20,327 bases of DNA from a virus, in the IMG/VR virus record IMGVR_UViG_3300024518_003605, positions 1 through 20,327 of that record; one strand, 5' to 3'. The position numbers and the translations under genes were made by a program. Positions within the stretch are counted from its first letter, which is position 1. Every line of letters begins with the position of its first letter. Below the pieces are notes generated by a model. The model was not told where the DNA came from and did not search any database. It was given only the letters and a program-made list of their open reading frames with translations. This document shows, one piece after another, positions 11,336 through 19,423 of this stretch.

Positions 11336-12781
11336 ATGACAACCGCAAAGGCAGGCATGCACGGTCATCCCCCGATCGTCAAAATAGAAAAAATACAAAG
11401 AACAGAAGTACAGAAGTACGTAGAAATGTGGAAGGATCCCGCGTACCGTATTGTTTCCCCAGGCGAAGAATCAGCCCAAATCTTCCTGAGTCAGGCTAAA
11501 CCTCTACCAGACAGTACGTGTATCGACTTTGGCTGCGGCACTGGTCGCGGCGGTCTAATGATTGCGTTATTCGGTAACATGGTCGTGACGCTGCTCGATT
11601 TCGCGTACAACGCACTCGATGAAGAGGTCAAGAACGCGACGATTACTCAGCCGCACCGTATTTCCTGGGTAGAGGCGGATCTGAATAACCCAATCCCCGC
11701 GGCTGCCGCCTACGGATATTGTACCGACGTAATGGAACATATCCCCCTGGGGGAGGTAGATCGAGTCTTACAGAATATCTTACAGTCAGCGAACCACGTG
11801 TTTTTTCAGATATCGACGGTCGACGATGTCATGGGCGAAACCATTGGTGAGACGCTGCATATGACGGTCAAGCCATACAGTTGGTGGCTCAAGAAGCTGC
11901 GCAAGCTGGGCGTCGTGGTGCATTGGTCGCAGAACTACGATGATCAGATGTGCCAGTTCTACATCAGTTCTTGGGTAAACCACAACGTCATAGAGATCGA
12001 AGGCAGCGTCAATACAGCGGCGCAGCAGGTTTTCGACAATATGCGCTGCAACGCCAAGACAGACTACTTATTGACCCACCCGCATCCGCTCCAGGATACG
12101 GAGATTATGATGATCTGCGGGGGCCCTTCGTTGAATGACTTTGAGGATGAAATCATCGAAGAGCGCAGTAAAGGCATGCCAATGATTACGTGCAATGGCA
12201 CCTATAACTGGGCCATTGAGCGCGGTATGAATCCCTCTCTACAACTGGTCATTGATGCTCGAGAGTTCAACAAACGCTTTGTCCAACCAGTGGTTGACGA
12301 CTGCAAATATATGCTTGCTTCTCAGTGCCATCCTTCGATGTTCGAAGGGCTACCGCTGGACAGAACGCATATCTGGCACGCGGCATTTGGCGAAGAAGCG
12401 AGCGACTTACTTGATGAACTCTATGAAATTTGGTTCCCGGTACCAGGAGGTTCCACGGTAACTTTGCGGGGCCTTTGCTTGCTCCGCATGTTGGGCTTTC
12501 ATAAGATTCACATGTATGGTTTCGACAGCTGCTATCGCGAGGAAGACCATCACGCGTATTCGCAGCCTGAAAATGACTATGGATCGAAGCCAATCCCTGT
12601 CGCTGTAGGCGGCCGGGTTTTTTGGTGCGACGCATGGATGTTTACGCAAGCCAAAGAATGGATGGATATGATCGGTATGTTTGGCGACGAGATCGAGTTG
12701 GATGTTAAAGGTGATGGGCTTATAGCTCATATTATTCAAACGGGTGCCGCGCTTAGCGCCTTAGAGGAAAACGAGGAATAA
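11336..12781 (+). CDS. Methyltransferase fused to DUF115 (MptE/Maf-like) domain
   Basis: This 481-residue fusion has an N-terminal class I SAM-dependent methyltransferase domain: motif I CIDFGCGTGRGG at 62-73, an acidic VTLLDF strand end (84-89), and TDVMEHIP (130-137), typical of motif IV and its flank. From about 250 a second domain resembles DUF115, shared by archaeal MptE (a hydroxymethylpterin pyrophosphokinase) and Maf flagellin glycosylation proteins: MICGGPSLND (259-268), TCNGTYNWAIERGMNP (285-300), VIDARE (305-310), PGGSTVTLRGLCLLRMLGF (370-388) and IHMYGFDSCY (391-400). Substrates are unknown; modification of a glycan or virion or host surface protein is inferred. AAGGA overlaps the stop of the nozzle gene. 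Such an enzyme is not needed for tail assembly. Confidence 0.88.
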   Translation: MTTAKAGMHGHPPIVKIEKIQRTEVQKYVEMWKDPAYRIVSPGEESAQIFLSQAKPLPDSTCIDFGCGTGRGGLMIALFGNMVVTLLDFAYNALDEEVKNATITQPHRISWVEADLNNPIPAAAAYGYCTDVMEHIPLGEVDRVLQNILQSANHVFFQISTVDDVMGETIGETLHMTVKPYSWWLKKLRKLGVVVHWSQNYDDQMCQFYISSWVNHNVIEIEGSVNTAAQQVFDNMRCNAKTDYLLTHPHPLQDTEIMMICGGPSLNDFEDEIIEERSKGMPMITCNGTYNWAIERGMNPSLQLVIDAREFNKRFVQPVVDDCKYMLASQCHPSMFEGLPLDRTHIWHAAFGEEASDLLDELYEIWFPVPGGSTVTLRGLCLLRMLGFHKIHMYGFDSCYREEDHHAYSQPENDYGSKPIPVAVGGRVFWCDAWMFTQAKEWMDMIGMFGDEIELDVKGDGLIAHIIQTGAALSALEENEE

Positions 12782-12784
12782 ACT

Positions 12785-13234
12785 ATGGCTGCTACAGCAT
12801 GGACTTTTTACAACGAAGCCAAGAAGAAGATTGGTAATAACACCATCCCGTTAGACGCCGGCATCTTCAAAATGCAGCTTCATACGTCCGCATCGAATGC
12901 ATCAACTGCCACTCTATCGGTCGCCAGCGAAGTCAACAACGAAATTGCCGTCCAGGCTGGCTATAACGCTGGCGGTAAAACTATCTCGGGGGTTGTTTGG
13001 ACAATTGCTGGCAACCCGTCATCCGTTAAATGGGACGCAACAGATTTAATCTTCACTGCCAGTGGCGCGAATCTTAGCATTGTGAAATTCGCCGTGGTTC
13101 ATAATTCGATTAACGCCGTTACTTCTGGTCACTTACTTGTTTGGTCACGTTTAAGCACCTTGCAGTTCTCAGTGACTTCGGGTAATACATTGACAGTGCA
13201 GTTCGCTACGGCTGGTATTTTCACCCTTACTTAA
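12785..13234 (+). CDS. Small virion-type beta protein
   Basis: A 149-residue protein with a GAGGAA site (12773-12778) overlapping the end of the preceding gene. The opening WTFYNEAKKKIGNNTIPLDAGIFKMQLHTS-type pattern (aromatic helix, then a strand with FKMQLHTS, about 6-34) is common to small phage proteins encoded in tail-fibre regions. The rest is Ser/Thr/Ala-rich with alternating strands and no catalytic motif. It is probably a minor structural or decoration protein, judged from composition and neighbours. No signal peptide or membrane segment. Possible acceptor for one of the flanking modification enzymes, but nothing in the sequence proves this. Confidence 0.72.
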   Translation: MAATAWTFYNEAKKKIGNNTIPLDAGIFKMQLHTSASNASTATLSVASEVNNEIAVQAGYNAGGKTISGVVWTIAGNPSSVKWDATDLIFTASGANLSIVKFAVVHNSINAVTSGHLLVWSRLSTLQFSVTSGNTLTVQFATAGIFTLT

Positions 13235-13247
13235 ATCGAGGTGCAAC

Positions 13248-13424
13248 GTGGCGGATGAAAAAGAAGAAGTAATCTCTATAGAAGAGTACCAGGAGCGTTG
13301 TAAGCAGCAGGCGCGAACGATACCGATGGTAAAAGCGGAAGCAGTAGTTAAGATTTTTAACCAGGACGGCAGTCTTAAATCAACTTTGAATTTTTCCAGT
13401 GAGGAAGTAGACGATGCGACTTAG
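13248..13424 (+). CDS. Small 58-residue protein
   Basis: This short ORF starts at GTG (13248) after a GAGG site with six bases of spacing and ends at TAG (13424), overlapping the next gene by 11 bases in another frame. The N-terminal half is charged (ADEKEEVISIEEYQERCKQQ) and helical in character; the second half has a likely beta hairpin (AVVKIFNQDGSLKSTLNF). I do not recognise the family. The good ribosome binding site, the fit between two genes and the coupling overlap support real expression. A small structural or chaperone role is possible. Confidence 0.68.
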   Translation: MADEKEEVISIEEYQERCKQQARTIPMVKAEAVVKIFNQDGSLKSTLNFSSEEVDDAT

Positions 13425-13815
13425 TACAGCATTAAGAAACACTTTGGCTGATGCCATTGATACGGCGGTAGGCGCAACAGGGTTTGCCCGCTTCTACACA
13501 GCGAGTGGGACTACTTTGCTTGCAAGTGCAAGTTGCAGTAACCCCGCTTTTGGCGCGGCAGCAACAGGTGTCATTACGCTGGATATTACCCCAGCGGTTG
13601 AAGACACTACTCCTGCCGCGGCAGGTACGTGTGTCAGACTTGGGTTTTATCCTGCAGCTACAGGTGCCTACGCGACAGATGTCTTCATGCTCGGTGTAGC
13701 CACTTCGGGTGCTCCAGATGTAACGATGGCGAACAACGTCATTGCGACAACGGATACAGTGCAGGTATCTAGCCTGCAAGTAACAGTACCGGCTGGCATA
13801 CCTGACGTAACGTAA
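13414..13815 (+). CDS. Small virion-type protein (MRLSTALRN family)
   Basis: A 133-residue protein overlapping the previous short gene by 11 bases, with GAGGAAG upstream inside that gene. The start MRLSTALRNTLADAID, a following GFARFYTASGTTLLASASCSNPAFGAA pattern and a Thr/Ala/Val-rich beta C-terminus match a small protein family that recurs in tail-fibre regions of many phages. Its molecular role is not established; a minor virion component or fibre-associated protein is the usual guess. Two cysteines (SASCSN and AGTCVRL) are present. There is no enzymatic motif. Confidence 0.75.
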   Translation: MRLSTALRNTLADAIDTAVGATGFARFYTASGTTLLASASCSNPAFGAAATGVITLDITPAVEDTTPAAAGTCVRLGFYPAATGAYATDVFMLGVATSGAPDVTMANNVIATTDTVQVSSLQVTVPAGIPDVT

Positions 13816-13826
13816 GTCTTCCAACT

Positions 13827-14654
13827 ATGGGAGACGAGCGAGAAGGCGCAGTCTGGATCGCTTCATACCCGAAGTCAGGAAATACCTGGCTTCGGTGTTT
13901 GTTGGAGGCTTATCGCCGTAACGGCAATTTAGACATAAACGATATGCGCATCACCACTGGCGATGCTGGTGCGACTATCATCCAGGGCGTATCCCCGCTC
14001 CCCCTGGATAAACTCGGTTTTCGTGGTGAGATGTTAGTACGGCCGGCAGCCTTGTTGAACTTGCTCACAAGAATGTCCAGCCCCATGTGGATAAAAACCC
14101 ACTTCGCTAACATACAACCCGCTGGGTTGCCTCATTGCATCCCACAAGATTTTACGGAACGTGCAATTTATATCGTACGTGACCCTCGAGCGGTGTTCCT
14201 GTCGTTCGCACAGTTTTTCAACTTTTCATTAAAAACTGCTGCCGATGCGATGAGCAACAACGAATTTGCTATTGGGGGTATGGGGGACTATGCCAGTACT
14301 TTGATTTCTGACTGGTCAAACCATGTCGCTTCATGGACATCCGAGACTGCGTATCCTGTACACATAGTAAAGTATGAGGATCTGGCTAAGGACTCGGCGA
14401 AGGAACTCAGTGAGGTCCTGGACTTCTTAGGAATGGATACTGAGAAAGCTATTATTCAACGAGCAGTGAAGGCCGCTGATATCAGTAAGCTCAAGGCGAA
14501 AGAAGAGGAAGAAGGCTTCCGTGAAAATATTACGGAGAAACACGGTAATTTCTTCAACGGCGGTACTTCATGGGAAGAGGAACTTGGTTCTAAATGGATC
14601 GCTAGGATTGAAAAGGATCATGGTAAAGTCATGAAAATTTTAGGTTATTTATAG
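13827..14654 (+). CDS. PAPS-dependent sulfotransferase
   Basis: This 275-residue enzyme would move a sulfuryl group from PAPS to a hydroxyl or amine. The 5'-phosphosulfate loop SYPKSGNTW is at 13-21, the likely catalytic histidine is H92 in WIKTHFA, and the 3'-phosphate motif IVRDPRAVFLSF (116-127) has R118 and S126 eight apart as in the family. VKYEDL (181-186) and the C-terminal NGGTSWEEEL followed by an amphipathic helix also fit. The usual RKGxxGxW motif is degraded here: only G and W249 are recognisable and the basic residues are missing. The acceptor is unknown; the phage must take PAPS from host sulfate assimilation. The ATG has a weak ribosome binding site, 11 bases after the previous stop. 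Confidence 0.93.
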   Translation: MGDEREGAVWIASYPKSGNTWLRCLLEAYRRNGNLDINDMRITTGDAGATIIQGVSPLPLDKLGFRGEMLVRPAALLNLLTRMSSPMWIKTHFANIQPAGLPHCIPQDFTERAIYIVRDPRAVFLSFAQFFNFSLKTAADAMSNNEFAIGGMGDYASTLISDWSNHVASWTSETAYPVHIVKYEDLAKDSAKELSEVLDFLGMDTEKAIIQRAVKAADISKLKAKEEEEGFRENITEKHGNFFNGGTSWEEELGSKWIARIEKDHGKVMKILGYL

Positions 14655-14663: not shown

Positions 14664-15077
14664 ATGCCTTATTCAGCAAACCAAGTCGCGAAGCTACAGG
14701 CTGAGCGCACCAACGATCCCCACGGTCGTACATACTTAGGCATGGACGATGCAACGTTTTTGGCGTCGGTCAACCTTGCTGATGTTGCAGTACTTCGAGA
14801 GGACGTTACTACACAGGAAATTTTCGAAGCCTATGTTGGTTCTGAGCTTCCTGTTCGCGGAAGTGATCAGTGGGAAAACCTGATGTTACTGGGGGCTATG
14901 AACAACGGTTCTGATTTGTCAATGTCAGGTAACATTCAAACCGTATTAGAGGATGTTTTTGGAATAGCTACAACTACGCGGGCTAACTTGTTAGCACTTA
15001 AAGATCGAAACGATTCACCTGCGAAAATTGCGGGACTACCACCGCCTTCTTTGGGCGACGTACAGAGGACAAGCTAA
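14664..15077 (+). CDS. Small tail-region protein, function unknown
   Basis: A 137-residue protein with a very strong AGGAGGG ribosome binding site. The helical N-terminal part (ANQVAKLQAERTNDPHGRTYLGMDDATFLASVN, about 5-37) is followed by LREDVTTQEIFEAYVGSELP (44-63), a QWENLMLLGAMNN segment and a C-terminal NLLALKDRNDSPAKIAGLPP. This reads like a small protein often placed before fibre genes in phage genomes, but I cannot name a function. Its strong translation signal suggests a structural role. The stop overlaps the next start as TAATG, so both are translated together. Confidence 0.72.
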   Translation: MPYSANQVAKLQAERTNDPHGRTYLGMDDATFLASVNLADVAVLREDVTTQEIFEAYVGSELPVRGSDQWENLMLLGAMNNGSDLSMSGNIQTVLEDVFGIATTTRANLLALKDRNDSPAKIAGLPPPSLGDVQRTS

Positions 15078-15595: not shown

Positions 15596-15676
15596 GTGGC
15601 GATTATTCGCAAAATCCCGTGGACATCGCAACCGCCGCCGGGGACGCCGCTTCGTAAGGACGGCATAGCTCTATGA
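15596..15676 (+). pseudogene. 26-codon ORF, likely remnant of a LamG protein N-terminus
   Basis: This ORF starts at GTG (15596) after AAGGA and ends at TGA, overlapping the next ATG (15673) as ATGA. Its peptide IRKIPWTSQPPPGTPL matches residues 233-248 of the next protein (VRKIPWTIKPPLGTPL) at 12 of 16 positions. That stretch is the usual N-terminal opening of phage LamG-type proteins. I infer that the ancestral LamG gene began here and that a beta module was later inserted behind it, leaving a short translated leader. It may still serve to couple translation to the next gene. Confidence 0.6.
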
Positions 15677-16416
15677 CTTTCCCAGTCATAGAGTCTGTTG
15701 CTGACGATCACAACGAGACAGGCAACTCCACTACCCATACGGTAGATTTGCCCGCCGGTATTCGTACTGGTGAGTTGTTACTTATATTTGCTGTTTCTGA
15801 CGGTCTTGATGCCCAAAGCGCCCCGATTGGCTGGAAGCGGGCAGCTTCAGAAACCAGTTCCCCTGTTACTAATATCTGGTACAAGAAGGCTGTTGGCGAT
15901 GAAGGGTCGTCAATAACCATCACGACTGTTGCTGGGCAAGTTCTTATATCAAAAGCCTACCGTATATCAGGCGCAGCAGACCCAGATATTTATCCACCCG
16001 AAGCGGCCCATGCTGGTGCGAGTTCGGCCGCAGCCAACGCTCCGTCATTATCAACCTCATGGAACAGTGAAGATACCTTGTGGTTGTCCCTTGTTGGAGT
16101 GGACACCACTGGTATTATTTTTACGACCTTCCCGCGCAACTTTACCGATACTGGTTCGTTTGATGCCGATGGTGGGGCTGGTGTAACTCTTGCTTATTGC
16201 CAAAAGGAAAGTCACGAACAGACAATAGACCCAACTGCATACGCTCAAAGTAATGAGCAATGGAACGCATGGACTGTTGCTATAAGACCAAAGTTTGACG
16301 GACTGCATCAACAAATTCAGCGGCGCAATTTTTTATTGGCGTCTGCTGCCGAAACTACTGGCATGGTTGTTCGTAAGATTCCGTGGACGATCAAGCCGCC
16401 CTTAGGAACGCCGCTT
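15605..16416 (+). repeat. Diverged direct repeat flanking an inserted module
   Basis: The 48 bases at 15605-15652 and at 16369-16416 align without gaps with 33 identical positions and are read in the corresponding frame. Longest shared stretches include CCGTGGAC and ACGCCGCTT. Between them lies the coding region for the first ~230 residues of the LamG-type protein. Confidence 0.65.
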
Positions 16417-17580
16417 GATTACGGCAATTCGCTCTGCCGAGGATTGTTGTTGGTTGATACTTTTCAAACCGACAAGTCTTTTGATTTAACTAGAAAACAT
16501 ATAGATGACGGAGCCAGCAACAAGATAGTTCAAGTTGTTCATCCTTATGGCAGGGAAGGAGCGTTCTTTGACAATGTAGCTAATGATCGTATACGTCGAT
16601 ATGCCCAAACTCCCAACACCCCTAGCAGCATGGTGGGTCTGCCCGGGTTAACAGTTGCTACAATACATCGCAAACGCAACCCCTCTGGTACTGATGGTAC
16701 TTATCGTTTAGGAGGCATCATACGTTCAGGCTTTAACAGTTGGTTTATGAATGCAAGTGATAATAATGCCAATGTCAGAAAATATTTCTGGTCTGTATAC
16801 GATACGACACCAACTCAATTTGAAACAGATGATGGAGCGACATATTCAACGACCGATACTGAACCACATATAATTATTGGACGGTGGATAGCAAGTACCG
16901 TTCTTGATCTTTGGCTTGACGGTGAGTTTTACACTGATCGTGCTGCTGGCGCACCAGCCAATATGCGGAATGATCGTGATGAGGCTTTTCAGGTTGCAGG
17001 CGAACACACTAATCCACAGTCTGCCAACGAAGAATTTTTCTTGTCAGTTGTATGGAATCGAGGATTATCTGATACAGAGATAAGAGAGTTTTCTAACAAT
17101 CCATGGCAGATATTCGAACCGCACATTCAGCATATACCAATTGGATTTATAGCTGTTGCTGGCGGCAGCCCCACAGCCAGTGGTACACCGTCAATAGATG
17201 TTATTACCGCTTCTGGTACAGCGACACAAACACAACTGGCATCTGGTACGCCATCGATAGATGTCTTAACCGCATCAGGTGTTGCGACACAAACACAACT
17301 AGTATCTGGTACGCCATCGATAGATGTCTTAACCGCGTCAGGTGTTGCGACACTTGCGGCATTCATAACAGCTAGCGGTACTCCATCGATAGATGTCTTA
17401 ACCGCGTCAGGTGTTGCGACACTTGCGGCATTCATAACAGCTAGCGGTACTCCATCGATCGACGTCGCAACTGCGGTAGGCGTAGCTACTAGAGGGCCCA
17501 TCATAGACGACGTAAATACAACGGAGTCGTGGAATGACGGCGACTCAGGCTTAATCATAACGGGCAAGGGGTTCATGTAA
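15673..17580 (+). CDS. Modular adhesin: beta module, LamG-like domain, repeat linker
   Basis: This 635-residue protein has four parts. Residues 1-206 form a beta-sandwich-like module (HTVDLPAGIRTGELLLIFAV, then W- and T-rich strands ending NAWTVAIRPK) common in phage fibre proteins. Residues 233-480 form a LamG/concanavalin A-like lectin domain starting VRKIPWTIKPPLGTPLDYGN and ending VVWNRGLSDTEIREFSNNPWQIFEP, the standard end of such phage domains. Residues 502-606 are five copies of a linker SGTPSIDVLTASGVAT. A short C-terminal part begins an IxDxNTTESWNDGDSGLIITGKGF fold, like the edge of an IPT/TIG-type domain, and stops there. Glycan binding at the host surface is inferred. It starts as ATGA with the preceding ORF; stop and next start overlap as TAATG. 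Confidence 0.85.
   Translation: MTFPVIESVADDHNETGNSTTHTVDLPAGIRTGELLLIFAVSDGLDAQSAPIGWKRAASETSSPVTNIWYKKAVGDEGSSITITTVAGQVLISKAYRISGAADPDIYPPEAAHAGASSAAANAPSLSTSWNSEDTLWLSLVGVDTTGIIFTTFPRNFTDTGSFDADGGAGVTLAYCQKESHEQTIDPTAYAQSNEQWNAWTVAIRPKFDGLHQQIQRRNFLLASAAETTGMVVRKIPWTIKPPLGTPLDYGNSLCRGLLLVDTFQTDKSFDLTRKHIDDGASNKIVQVVHPYGREGAFFDNVANDRIRRYAQTPNTPSSMVGLPGLTVATIHRKRNPSGTDGTYRLGGIIRSGFNSWFMNASDNNANVRKYFWSVYDTTPTQFETDDGATYSTTDTEPHIIIGRWIASTVLDLWLDGEFYTDRAAGAPANMRNDRDEAFQVAGEHTNPQSANEEFFLSVVWNRGLSDTEIREFSNNPWQIFEPHIQHIPIGFIAVAGGSPTASGTPSIDVITASGTATQTQLASGTPSIDVLTASGVATQTQLVSGTPSIDVLTASGVATLAAFITASGTPSIDVLTASGVATLAAFITASGTPSIDVATAVGVATRGPIIDDVNTTESWNDGDSGLIITGKGFM
17176..17490 (+). repeat. Tandem repeat array coding a Ser/Thr/Ala linker
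   Basis: Five in-frame units encode SGTPSIDVxTASGxAT with spacers QTQLA/V or LAAFITA. Two units are 63 bases (17278-17340 is one) and later ones 69 bases (17341-17409). A 77-base stretch at 17314-17390 is repeated exactly at 17383-17459, a period of 69. Such identity points to recent duplication by slippage or recombination. Confidence 0.92.
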
Positions 17581-17909
17581 TGCCACAAGTTAAATTGGAA
17601 GTTCGAACTATGAACAGTATAGACCGCCTTATATTTCGTGAGGGCGAAGATCGTAATGGGCCAGCAATGATAATGAATATTGCTGATAAACAGGTGATGC
17701 GAGCAGCGATTCAAGGAGTGAATACCCCCGGTGATTTTGTGTTCGTTAATGATGCTTTGTTTCGACGTGAAGAAGGATCTACTACTGCTCAGATCGCATT
17801 GTTTACGGTCGAGCAAGACTGCGATGACTTCATAGCGGCTCATCCTGGCACGAGTAAAATAACTGAGCTGTCTGGTGACGGCTTTAACTGGAAAGCAGTT
17901 GAAGGCTAA
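17580..17909 (+). CDS. Small protein between two fibre genes, function unknown
   Basis: A 109-residue protein joined to both neighbours by TAATG overlaps. It appears mixed alpha/beta: an N-terminal strand (VKLEVRTMNSIDRLIFREGED), a middle with QVMRAAIQGVNTPGDFVFVNDALFRREEG and a C-terminal helix (VEQDCDDFIAAHPGTSKITEL). It is acidic, with one cysteine, no repeats and no membrane segment. I do not recognise the family. Strict coupling to a LamG-type protein and a repeat-containing virion protein suggests a small fibre-associated or assembly-helper protein, which is inference from position only. Confidence 0.72.
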   Translation: MPQVKLEVRTMNSIDRLIFREGEDRNGPAMIMNIADKQVMRAAIQGVNTPGDFVFVNDALFRREEGSTTAQIALFTVEQDCDDFIAAHPGTSKITELSGDGFNWKAVEG

Positions 17910-19423
17910 TGGCTGACGTTTGGTATAAAACAGGCACGTTTACTACCCCGGCGTCGGGTACGACAGTTATTTCGACGACAGACAAAGGTACTAACCCGAA
18001 AGCTATTCACCTGTGGTGGACTCACGCTGATACGAATGACACTAATGAACTAGGCGTCTGCTTTGGGCATGGCTTTGGTGACGGCACTGACGAGACTGCG
18101 ATGTGCCTCGCGTCTCAGCACAACGGCTCAGTCAATCGTCGTCATGGTATAGGTACAATAGCAGGTACAGGCAACTGCATAGCAATTCTTAATCCAGCAT
18201 CTATTACCACAACTACATCTGGCACGCTGTTTGTTATTGGCACAACGGCAGCGATGAACGTTAACGATGTAACGATCACTTATACGACATTCACTGCTGG
18301 CATCATCGTTCACTATGAGATATGGGGCGGCGCAGATTGTTCTGCCAACATGACCATTCGTAACGCTGATCCTGCTACTGATTCCCCGTTTACTCATAGC
18401 TTAGGTGCAACCCCTGATCTGATCTTGCAATGTACTTTGGGCCAGGCCCATCCAGCTAACGCTGAGTTCGCGTTTATGGCGTTTGGCGCAGCTCATGACA
18501 ATGGTGCAAGCATTGATCAATGGATGCTGTCTGCATACCTGGGAGATAACAACGAGACTGATACAGGGTCAGCGATTACGCCTGCAATGTATACAGGGCA
18601 GTACGACCTCGAGTATGCCGATTGGGATAACACAATAACGGTAATCGGTGCGACTACGTTTACGTGGACAGCGGGGACTGGTTCATCTGGCATGACCGAT
18701 GATGTCATCGACTTATACTTAGATTTTAGCGGCGTTGGTGTCGATGTCGGTACGTTTACGAAATCTACGGGAGGGGCACCCGTAACACAAGCATTGCCTA
18801 ACCTTGGCTTTACGCCTTTGGGTTATCACCTAGCTACTGCGAACAATACGGGCACGGGCAGAACAACTCAGACTGAAGGCCATATGGCGCACGGTGCTTA
18901 CGACGGATCTACAGGACATGCAGCCGCAGGCGTCCAAGATAATGGCAATAATACTGATCGGGCGTCTCGTTCAATCACTGGTGAAGTCCTGTTTGGGTCG
19001 GCAGACCTAGATGTATCTGGAGTTCAGTTCTCAGGTACACCGCAAGCGATCACTGACGCTACGCCAGATGTTGAATGGAATCCGAATACAGCCAGTGCTG
19101 TTCACATAGGCTACTACGCTGTCGAGGATACGAACCTCACTTTGACAGCTTCAGGTACACCGTCAATAGATACAATTACTGCGTCGGGTACGGCAATACT
19201 AGCAGCGCAGCACGAACAAGATAGCTTCGGGTTCTATAATGATGGCACTGAAGCAGGAGCAACAACGCTTGCTGCTCAGAATGTTGATATTTCCATTGGA
19301 AAGGAGGAAACATTCCAATTAAGAGTGGGCGGCCAGCTAACCGGCGATCCTGACGCACTATCGGCAACACTACAATATAAGAAAACCGGCGACGCCGATT
19401 CTGAGTTCCGAGACGTACCGTAA
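17909..19423 (+). CDS. Virion protein with three related beta domains and shared linker
   Basis: This 504-residue protein seems built from three diverged copies of one beta-sandwich-type domain: about 1-141, 142-274 and 275-406. Each carries an AxHxxx/FGHGFGDGT-like centre (FGHGFGDG 52-59, FGAAHDNG 192-199, MAHGAYDG 326-333) and ends in a strand before a Gly or acidic turn (VHYEIWGG, IDLYLDFSG, VHIGYYAVED). A linker LTASGTPSIDTITASGTA (411-428) repeats the array of the LamG gene. The C-terminal domain (436-504), opening FGFYNDGTEAGATTLAAQ and ending ATLQYKKTGDADSEFRDVP, is a common phage/bacterial surface module. A decorated or fibre protein of the virion is the likely role. Confidence 0.8.
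   Translation: MADVWYKTGTFTTPASGTTVISTTDKGTNPKAIHLWWTHADTNDTNELGVCFGHGFGDGTDETAMCLASQHNGSVNRRHGIGTIAGTGNCIAILNPASITTTTSGTLFVIGTTAAMNVNDVTITYTTFTAGIIVHYEIWGGADCSANMTIRNADPATDSPFTHSLGATPDLILQCTLGQAHPANAEFAFMAFGAAHDNGASIDQWMLSAYLGDNNETDTGSAITPAMYTGQYDLEYADWDNTITVIGATTFTWTAGTGSSGMTDDVIDLYLDFSGVGVDVGTFTKSTGGAPVTQALPNLGFTPLGYHLATANNTGTGRTTQTEGHMAHGAYDGSTGHAAAGVQDNGNNTDRASRSITGEVLFGSADLDVSGVQFSGTPQAITDATPDVEWNPNTASAVHIGYYAVEDTNLTLTASGTPSIDTITASGTAILAAQHEQDSFGFYNDGTEAGATTLAAQNVDISIGKEETFQLRVGGQLTGDPDALSATLQYKKTGDADSEFRDVP
19154..19203 (+). repeat. Copy of the SGTPSID linker in a second gene
   Basis: The 18 bases at 19154-19171 (GGTACACCGTCAATAGAT) are identical to 17182-17199 in the LamG gene, and the following bases encode a similar TITASGTA. 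A linker shared between two genes about 2 kb apart offers a site for recombination. Confidence 0.8.

Follow-up and report, generated by a model that had tools for sequence, protein, structure and literature searches.

Teg12, Teg14 and StaL, sulfotransferases of actinobacterial clusters, act on glycopeptide antibiotics, and RaxST of Xanthomonas, the product of a bacterial and not a phage gene, is a tyrosine sulfotransferase that sulfates a peptide. Sulfotransferases have also been reported from phages, where they count as auxiliary or unexplained (PMC10580990, PMC8290583, PMC12285232, PMC10829341, PMC13079714). In these texts, the OM43 phage genomes contain Sulfotransfer_3 members whose function is stated as unclear (PMC10580990), one sulfotransferase of glacier ice viruses is listed as an auxiliary gene (PMC8290583), and surveys count such enzymes as viral auxiliary metabolic genes (PMC8290583, PMC13079714, PMC12285232).

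The sulfotransferase analysed here is encoded in an IMG/VR virus record, a fragment of 20,327 bases that was analysed over its whole length and is called the window below. The genes of the window all lie on one strand and encode a terminase, a portal protein (phrog_156), a major head protein (phrog_334), fibre-like proteins and proteins of phrog_399, 437 and 511. The sulfotransferase reading frame starts with ATG, is uninterrupted and complete, and is located among small late genes, as the first-pass annotation had described. The structural genes, those of the portal and the major head protein among them, and the terminase gene lie upstream; the late expression of the sulfotransferase is deduced from this position. 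Terminator-like sites are present inside the gene, and a search for a cassette-specific promoter gave nothing above shuffled expectation. The locations of the sulfotransferase gene and its neighbours are summarized in Table 1.

Table 1. Sulfotransferase gene and neighbouring features in the window
Feature	Coordinates	Strand	Remarks
g149, phrog_644 (function-unknown family), left cassette border, lineage-conserved	12785..13234	+	
orf58, 58 aa, GTG start, 11-nt overlap with g133	13248..13424	+	motif around NQDGSLKS
g133, 133 aa, putative appendage-type virion protein, sulfotransferase partner	13414..13815	+	phrog_3758, fold match
Sulfotransferase, PAPS-type, 275 aa	13827..14654	+	P-loop 13-21, K90, H92, R118, S126
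g137, right cassette border	14664..15077	+	directly after g149 in L017, 82% identical
g635, fibre-like, repeats ASGTPSIDVLTASGVAT, three 63-69 nt repeat arrays	15673..17580	+	
g504, second fibre-like protein, one copy of g635 repeat ASGTPSIDVLTASGVAT	17909..19423	+	

In the Pfam search, PF00685 (Sulfotransfer_1) matched residues 8-271 of the window enzyme with an E value of 1.8e-24 (87 bits against a cut-off of 22; profile positions 3-253 of 255), and Sulfotransfer_3 matched with an E value of 2.6e-10; no PHROG match was obtained for this enzyme or for the 36 viral relatives tested. The best sequence matches in the PDB were Teg14 (E 8.5e-17) and Teg12 (E 1.6e-16), and the window enzyme shares with Teg12, Teg14 and StaL, which are Sulfotransfer_1 members, the P-loop context W-I-A-S-Y-P-K-x-G-N-T-W-x-R. 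The motifs named in the first-pass annotation, that is, the PAPS loop SYPKSGNTW (residues 13-21), H92 within KTHFA (residues 90-94) and the pair R118 and S126, are all in place. An alignment with 37 viral relatives showed that W10, S13-P15, S17-W21, R23, N38, K90, H92, R118, P120, S126, E184, E226 and F242 are invariant. The 5'-phosphosulfate loop YPKSGxTW (residues 14-21) is kept in 37 of the 37 homologues, with K16 nearly invariant (R in L164), and this invariant set includes the catalytic His and Lys and the 3'-phosphate-binding Arg and Ser (H92, K90, R118 and S126).

The C-terminal 3'-phosphate loop of cytosolic sulfotransferases has the form R-K-G-x-x-G. The corresponding loop of the window enzyme is FFN-GGT and is altered also in the other cassette-clade enzymes; several sister viral sulfotransferases retain an FFRKGK loop. 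The AlphaFold2 model of the window enzyme (pLDDT 93.2, pTM 0.91), which is itself ligand-free, matched PAP-bound Teg12 and SULT structures with Z scores of 19-23, and the complex of Teg12 with PAP and teicoplanin aglycone with a Z score of 22.7 (rmsd 2.7, 230 residues aligned). We concluded that the window enzyme is a PAPS-type sulfotransferase, and both the profile search and the fold comparison agree with the family assignment made in the first-pass annotation. The family and the residues indicate the use of PAPS, and the enzyme probably transfers sulfate. As a sulfotransferase it would add sulfate, and the earlier description of an enzyme "acting on sulfated targets" has the reaction backwards.

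Contigs of the phage lineage of the window were gathered with the portal and the 701-aa protein and are 60-80% identical over the structural genes. Seven close relatives (L015, L017, L018, L020, L021, L022 and L023) have contigs reaching beyond the cassette site, and none of them carries the sulfotransferase gene; a profile search of 17 further lineage records, several of which are fragments, also found none. The sulfotransferase thus does not belong to the core genes of this lineage. In L017, g149 directly adjoins g137 and both genes have the boundaries seen in the window, which represents a clean empty site; therefore, the insert is a cassette of three genes, namely orf58, g133 and, in third place, the sulfotransferase gene. 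Outside the cassette, at positions 11336-12781, the window encodes a methyltransferase fused to an MptE-like protein (PF01973 E 4e-13, Methyltransf_25), which is 61-70% identical across the lineage, directly follows the 701-aa virion gene and possibly modifies virion or host glycans.

When the window enzyme was used as query, the peptide-pattern search gave no match in viral or genome contigs, and the isolate phages (50,697 records) contained no match to it or to two sister sulfotransferases. Its relatives were first reached by a degenerate P-loop DNA pattern and not by direct homology search; this pattern retrieved 79 viral contigs, most of which encode sulfotransferase homologues. Each of the closest homologues (62 to 46% identity) comes immediately after a g133 homologue, and g133 was found directly 5' of the enzyme gene in L150, L110, L159, L163, L164, L142, L134, L109, L147/L082, L087 and L112, the near-duplicate pair L147/L082 being counted once. 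A scan with the g133 profile, which is blind to the enzyme, detected 12 loci comprising 8 known contigs, 2 new ones and 2 distant homologues. The new loci, L163 and L164, both carry g133 and the enzyme; their enzymes have YPRSGNTW and were absent from the results of the P-loop motif scan. The two distant g133 homologues (31-37% identity) have no sulfotransferase, and the genome-contig scan revealed no prophages or hosts with g133. This g133-only scan is a cleaner test of linkage than the enrichment of upstream families (27 of 57 versus 35 of 438 genes), which is partly circular because most of the families were chosen after the neighbours had been seen.

The first gene of the cassette recurs as well. 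An ORF of 51-65 aa with a DKDGNVK-like motif precedes g133 in 10 contigs, the window included, and a search for this motif in about 200 loci found cassette contigs only, the motif having been derived from the cassette contigs themselves and the pattern not catching the variant copy of the window (NQDGSLKS). The full cassette is present in the window and in L110, L150, L159, L163, L164, L142, L134, L109 and L147, with diverged forms in L087 and L112; it occurs in 11 viral contigs and on at least five unrelated phage backbones. These backbones have portals of phrog_156, 12082, 1216 and 146, a head protein of phrog_9953 and, in L150, a long-tail tape measure. As the portals, head proteins or tails differ, the cassette has either been transferred among unrelated backbones or persisted in them, and we propose that it is transferable. 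The first-pass annotation had looked to synteny in related phages: at the site itself this failed in all the spanning relatives, but the position of the enzyme gene behind g133 recurs in unrelated phages. The tandem repeats of 63-69 nt in g635 span positions 17181-17505 of the window, and outside the window the ASGTPSIDVLTASGVAT repeat was found, among about 200 loci, only in the g133-carrying contigs L110, L164/L177 (one contig), L150 and L172. In L109 (4978-5565), upstream of the cassette, a 195-aa ORF with a PHSGTRSL motif resembles a diverged sulfotransferase and has no Pfam hit.

Six of the 10 members of the g133 family matched phrog_3758, "virion structural protein" (best E 2.8e-10), the match of the window g133 alone being marginal (6e-4). 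The g133 model (pLDDT 91) matched 9rkv_A, a chain from the tail-fibre map of Agrobacterium phage 7-7-1 (PMC12796354), with a Z score of 11.5 (rmsd 2.3 over 120 residues), and connector/neck chains of Bas63 and Sf14 with Z scores of 9.2-9.4 (9mt4_M, Z 9.4; 9c39_K, Z 9.2); the match to the GP4 fiber I/adaptor chain 8jou_a had a Z score of 6.5. Judged from this model, g133 shares its fold with small phage tail-appendage and neck proteins. It differs from PF23140 (GP4 fiber I gp80) in having no Pfam hit at all, and profile comparisons showed no significant similarity of g133 to the PF23140 partners of sister sulfotransferases or to g149; the comparison of g149 with the GP4-like partners was suggestive only (probability 30%).

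Relatives of g133 without the enzyme were observed in L171, L172 and isolate phages. In Sphingopyxis phage VSN-002 such a relative lies between P22-type tail accessory and DNA stabilization genes, and in Vibrio phages K354, K406 and K408 the relatives are annotated as virion structural protein, that of K354 being followed by a long repetitive protein. Therefore, the appendage does not need the sulfotransferase, and the loci of the isolate phages suggest that a small appendage protein with a repeat fibre behind it is the older unit, to which the sulfotransferase seems to be an optional addition. In VSN-002 an unannotated 488-aa ORF (L203:5956-7422) with repeats of about 24 residues (TTGALTGQLGSISGSAAR) comes right after the g133 homologue. 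A conserved tyrosine in g133 was considered as acceptor and rejected: Tyr79 is nearly constant, but L164 has His at this position although it carries the enzyme, and L171 lacks the residue, so that g133 has no clear acceptor site.

In a sulfotransferase tree of 63 rows, the cassette enzymes formed one clade (7 rows, 100/99), the g133-linked enzymes of L087 and L112 fell elsewhere, and the enzymes linked to P22-type coat genes and those linked to 145-aa proteins formed separate groups of their own. The partner labels changed 7 times on the tree versus 22.3 times when shuffled. The distances of g133 and of the enzyme were correlated (Mantel r 0.83, p 0.002, n 9), and the correlation inside the cassette clade alone was weak (r 0.54, p 0.046, n 7). 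All six of the 145-aa partners of sister sulfotransferases belong to PF23140, GP4 fiber I gp80, and nine upstream partners matched the phrog_283 major head protein. The separate clade that follows P22-type major head genes (L157, L083, L140, L136, L127, L097, L084 and L092) has its sulfotransferase genes mostly within about 370 bases of the coat gene and before a small adaptor gene. Tandem ORF pairs with sulfotransferase P-loops in one operon occur in L086 (8753-10398), L145, L102, L108, L125 and L154.

In L099 (7296-8505), an APS kinase gene (PF01583 E 1.7e-21) overlaps the sulfotransferase gene by a few bases, forming a PAPS-making and PAPS-using pair, which is consistent with a demand for PAPS. 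This was the only one of 40 sulfotransferase-bearing records with an APS kinase above the family cut-off, none being found in the window record, itself a fragment, and a phage-supplied PAPS as a general feature was rejected. The best bacterial matches in the plasmid collection (24-34% identity) were on plasmids of Thalassobaculum, Tistrella and Hyphomicrobiales. HPr-kinase-like genes neighbour three of the four bacterial relatives, two of these three also having asparagine synthase; PqqD was seen in one, a lasso B2 gene in one, and no peptide-cluster neighbours were seen in L200. The nearest bacterial relatives in this collection lie mostly in peptide-maturation-like, that is, peptide-modifying, clusters.

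The linkage, the virion-gene-linked sister clades and the bacterial relatives in peptide-maturation clusters together suggest appendage sulfation. The best explanation, to which we give about an even chance, is that a virion appendage protein is O-sulfated late in infection. The sulfotransferase would be made late, together with orf58 and g133 and beside the fibre module; sulfate would be taken from the PAPS of the host; the enzyme would O-sulfate the appendage, be it g133, orf58 or the repeat fibre next to them, either ahead of assembly or in its course; and the part of the virion in contact with the host surface would thereby change its charge. The enzyme family, its fold, the invariant active site, the cassette, the occurrence of the cassette on unrelated backbones and its absence from close relatives are observed; the activity, substrate, product and benefit in this scheme are those that we infer. 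The wider proposition, that phages of an environmental family possess a protein sulfotransferase of their own, which is passed on in one cassette with a tail-appendage protein and attaches sulfate covalently to virion proteins, is put forward tentatively, the chances lying somewhat against it. The linkage seen in different phage genomes makes a virion target more likely than a metabolic one. However, the late-operon linkage is also expected from an enzyme that acts on the host surface late in infection. Such an enzyme might sulfate surface glycans or the envelope, for instance to keep progeny from adsorbing again or to prevent superinfection, and the operon would then set the timing only. The first-pass annotation had named virion and host surface side by side as targets; the linkage speaks for the former, and the latter is an unlikely alternative, though one with appreciable weight. 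Tail-fibre loci commonly carry receptor-altering genes, and the distant phage sulfotransferases of L186, L188, L195 and L197 cluster with nucleotide-sugar epimerases and methyltransferases, which fits glycan modification. The cassette clade, on the contrary, is tied to one specific virion protein across unrelated backbones with no sugar genes nearby, and the sister clades lie behind coat or fibre I genes, a placement for which an enzyme directed at the host would have no need.

A glycan might also be a target on the virion itself, if the methyltransferase/MptE-like protein (11336-12781) added a glycan that the enzyme then sulfated. The MptE-like Pfam model also includes Maf-type protein glycosyltransferases, and the lineage has conserved the gene; but it was found in none of the 11 other cassette or g133-linked records, several of which are fragments, and it is kept by sulfotransferase-free members of the lineage. 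On this absence a common two-step system of the two genes was rejected, and we regard the scheme as very improbable. Sulfation of small molecules, or an auxiliary metabolic role in sulfur metabolism, would accord with the surveys cited above and with the many solved structures of the same fold whose substrates are small phenols and steroids. An auxiliary metabolic gene would be expected to lie beside host metabolic genes or to depend on them; the neighbours here are consistently virion genes and not metabolic ones, and APS kinase is confined to the one record, which makes the metabolic role improbable. It is similarly improbable that the protein uses the sulfotransferase fold for a structural or binding role, has a degenerate cofactor site and transfers no sulfate: the altered R-K-G-type loop of the cassette clade would fit this, but all 37 homologues strictly retain the P-loop (K16 nearly), the catalytic His, Arg118 and Ser126.

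If appendage sulfation is true, sulfation would join the known modifications of phage particles, and the enzyme would provide a sulfotransferase for peptides or proteins that occurs in nature and has defined partners. At the level of the genes, the partner classes indicated are small appendage proteins, GP4 fiber I proteins and P22-type coat proteins, and the P22-coat-linked sister enzymes would extend virion sulfation to capsids. Phage sulfotransferases recur in metagenomes, and the linkage makes their function directly testable, as sulfate on virions or on co-expressed partners.

The open-access literature searched yielded no account of sulfated phage virions or of a g133-sulfotransferase cassette. 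Phage sulfotransferases are already known, and what appears to be new is the recurrent cassette. The sulfotransferases of OM43 phages and glacier viruses are environmental phage genes too, and the passages on them mention no virion-gene link or cassette. The bacterial sulfotransferases of lasso-peptide-like clusters form a supported clade separate from the viral enzymes and have no virion genes nearby. Unlike Teg12, Teg14 and StaL, the window enzyme is encoded by a late phage gene, has an appendage-protein partner and carries an altered C-terminal loop.
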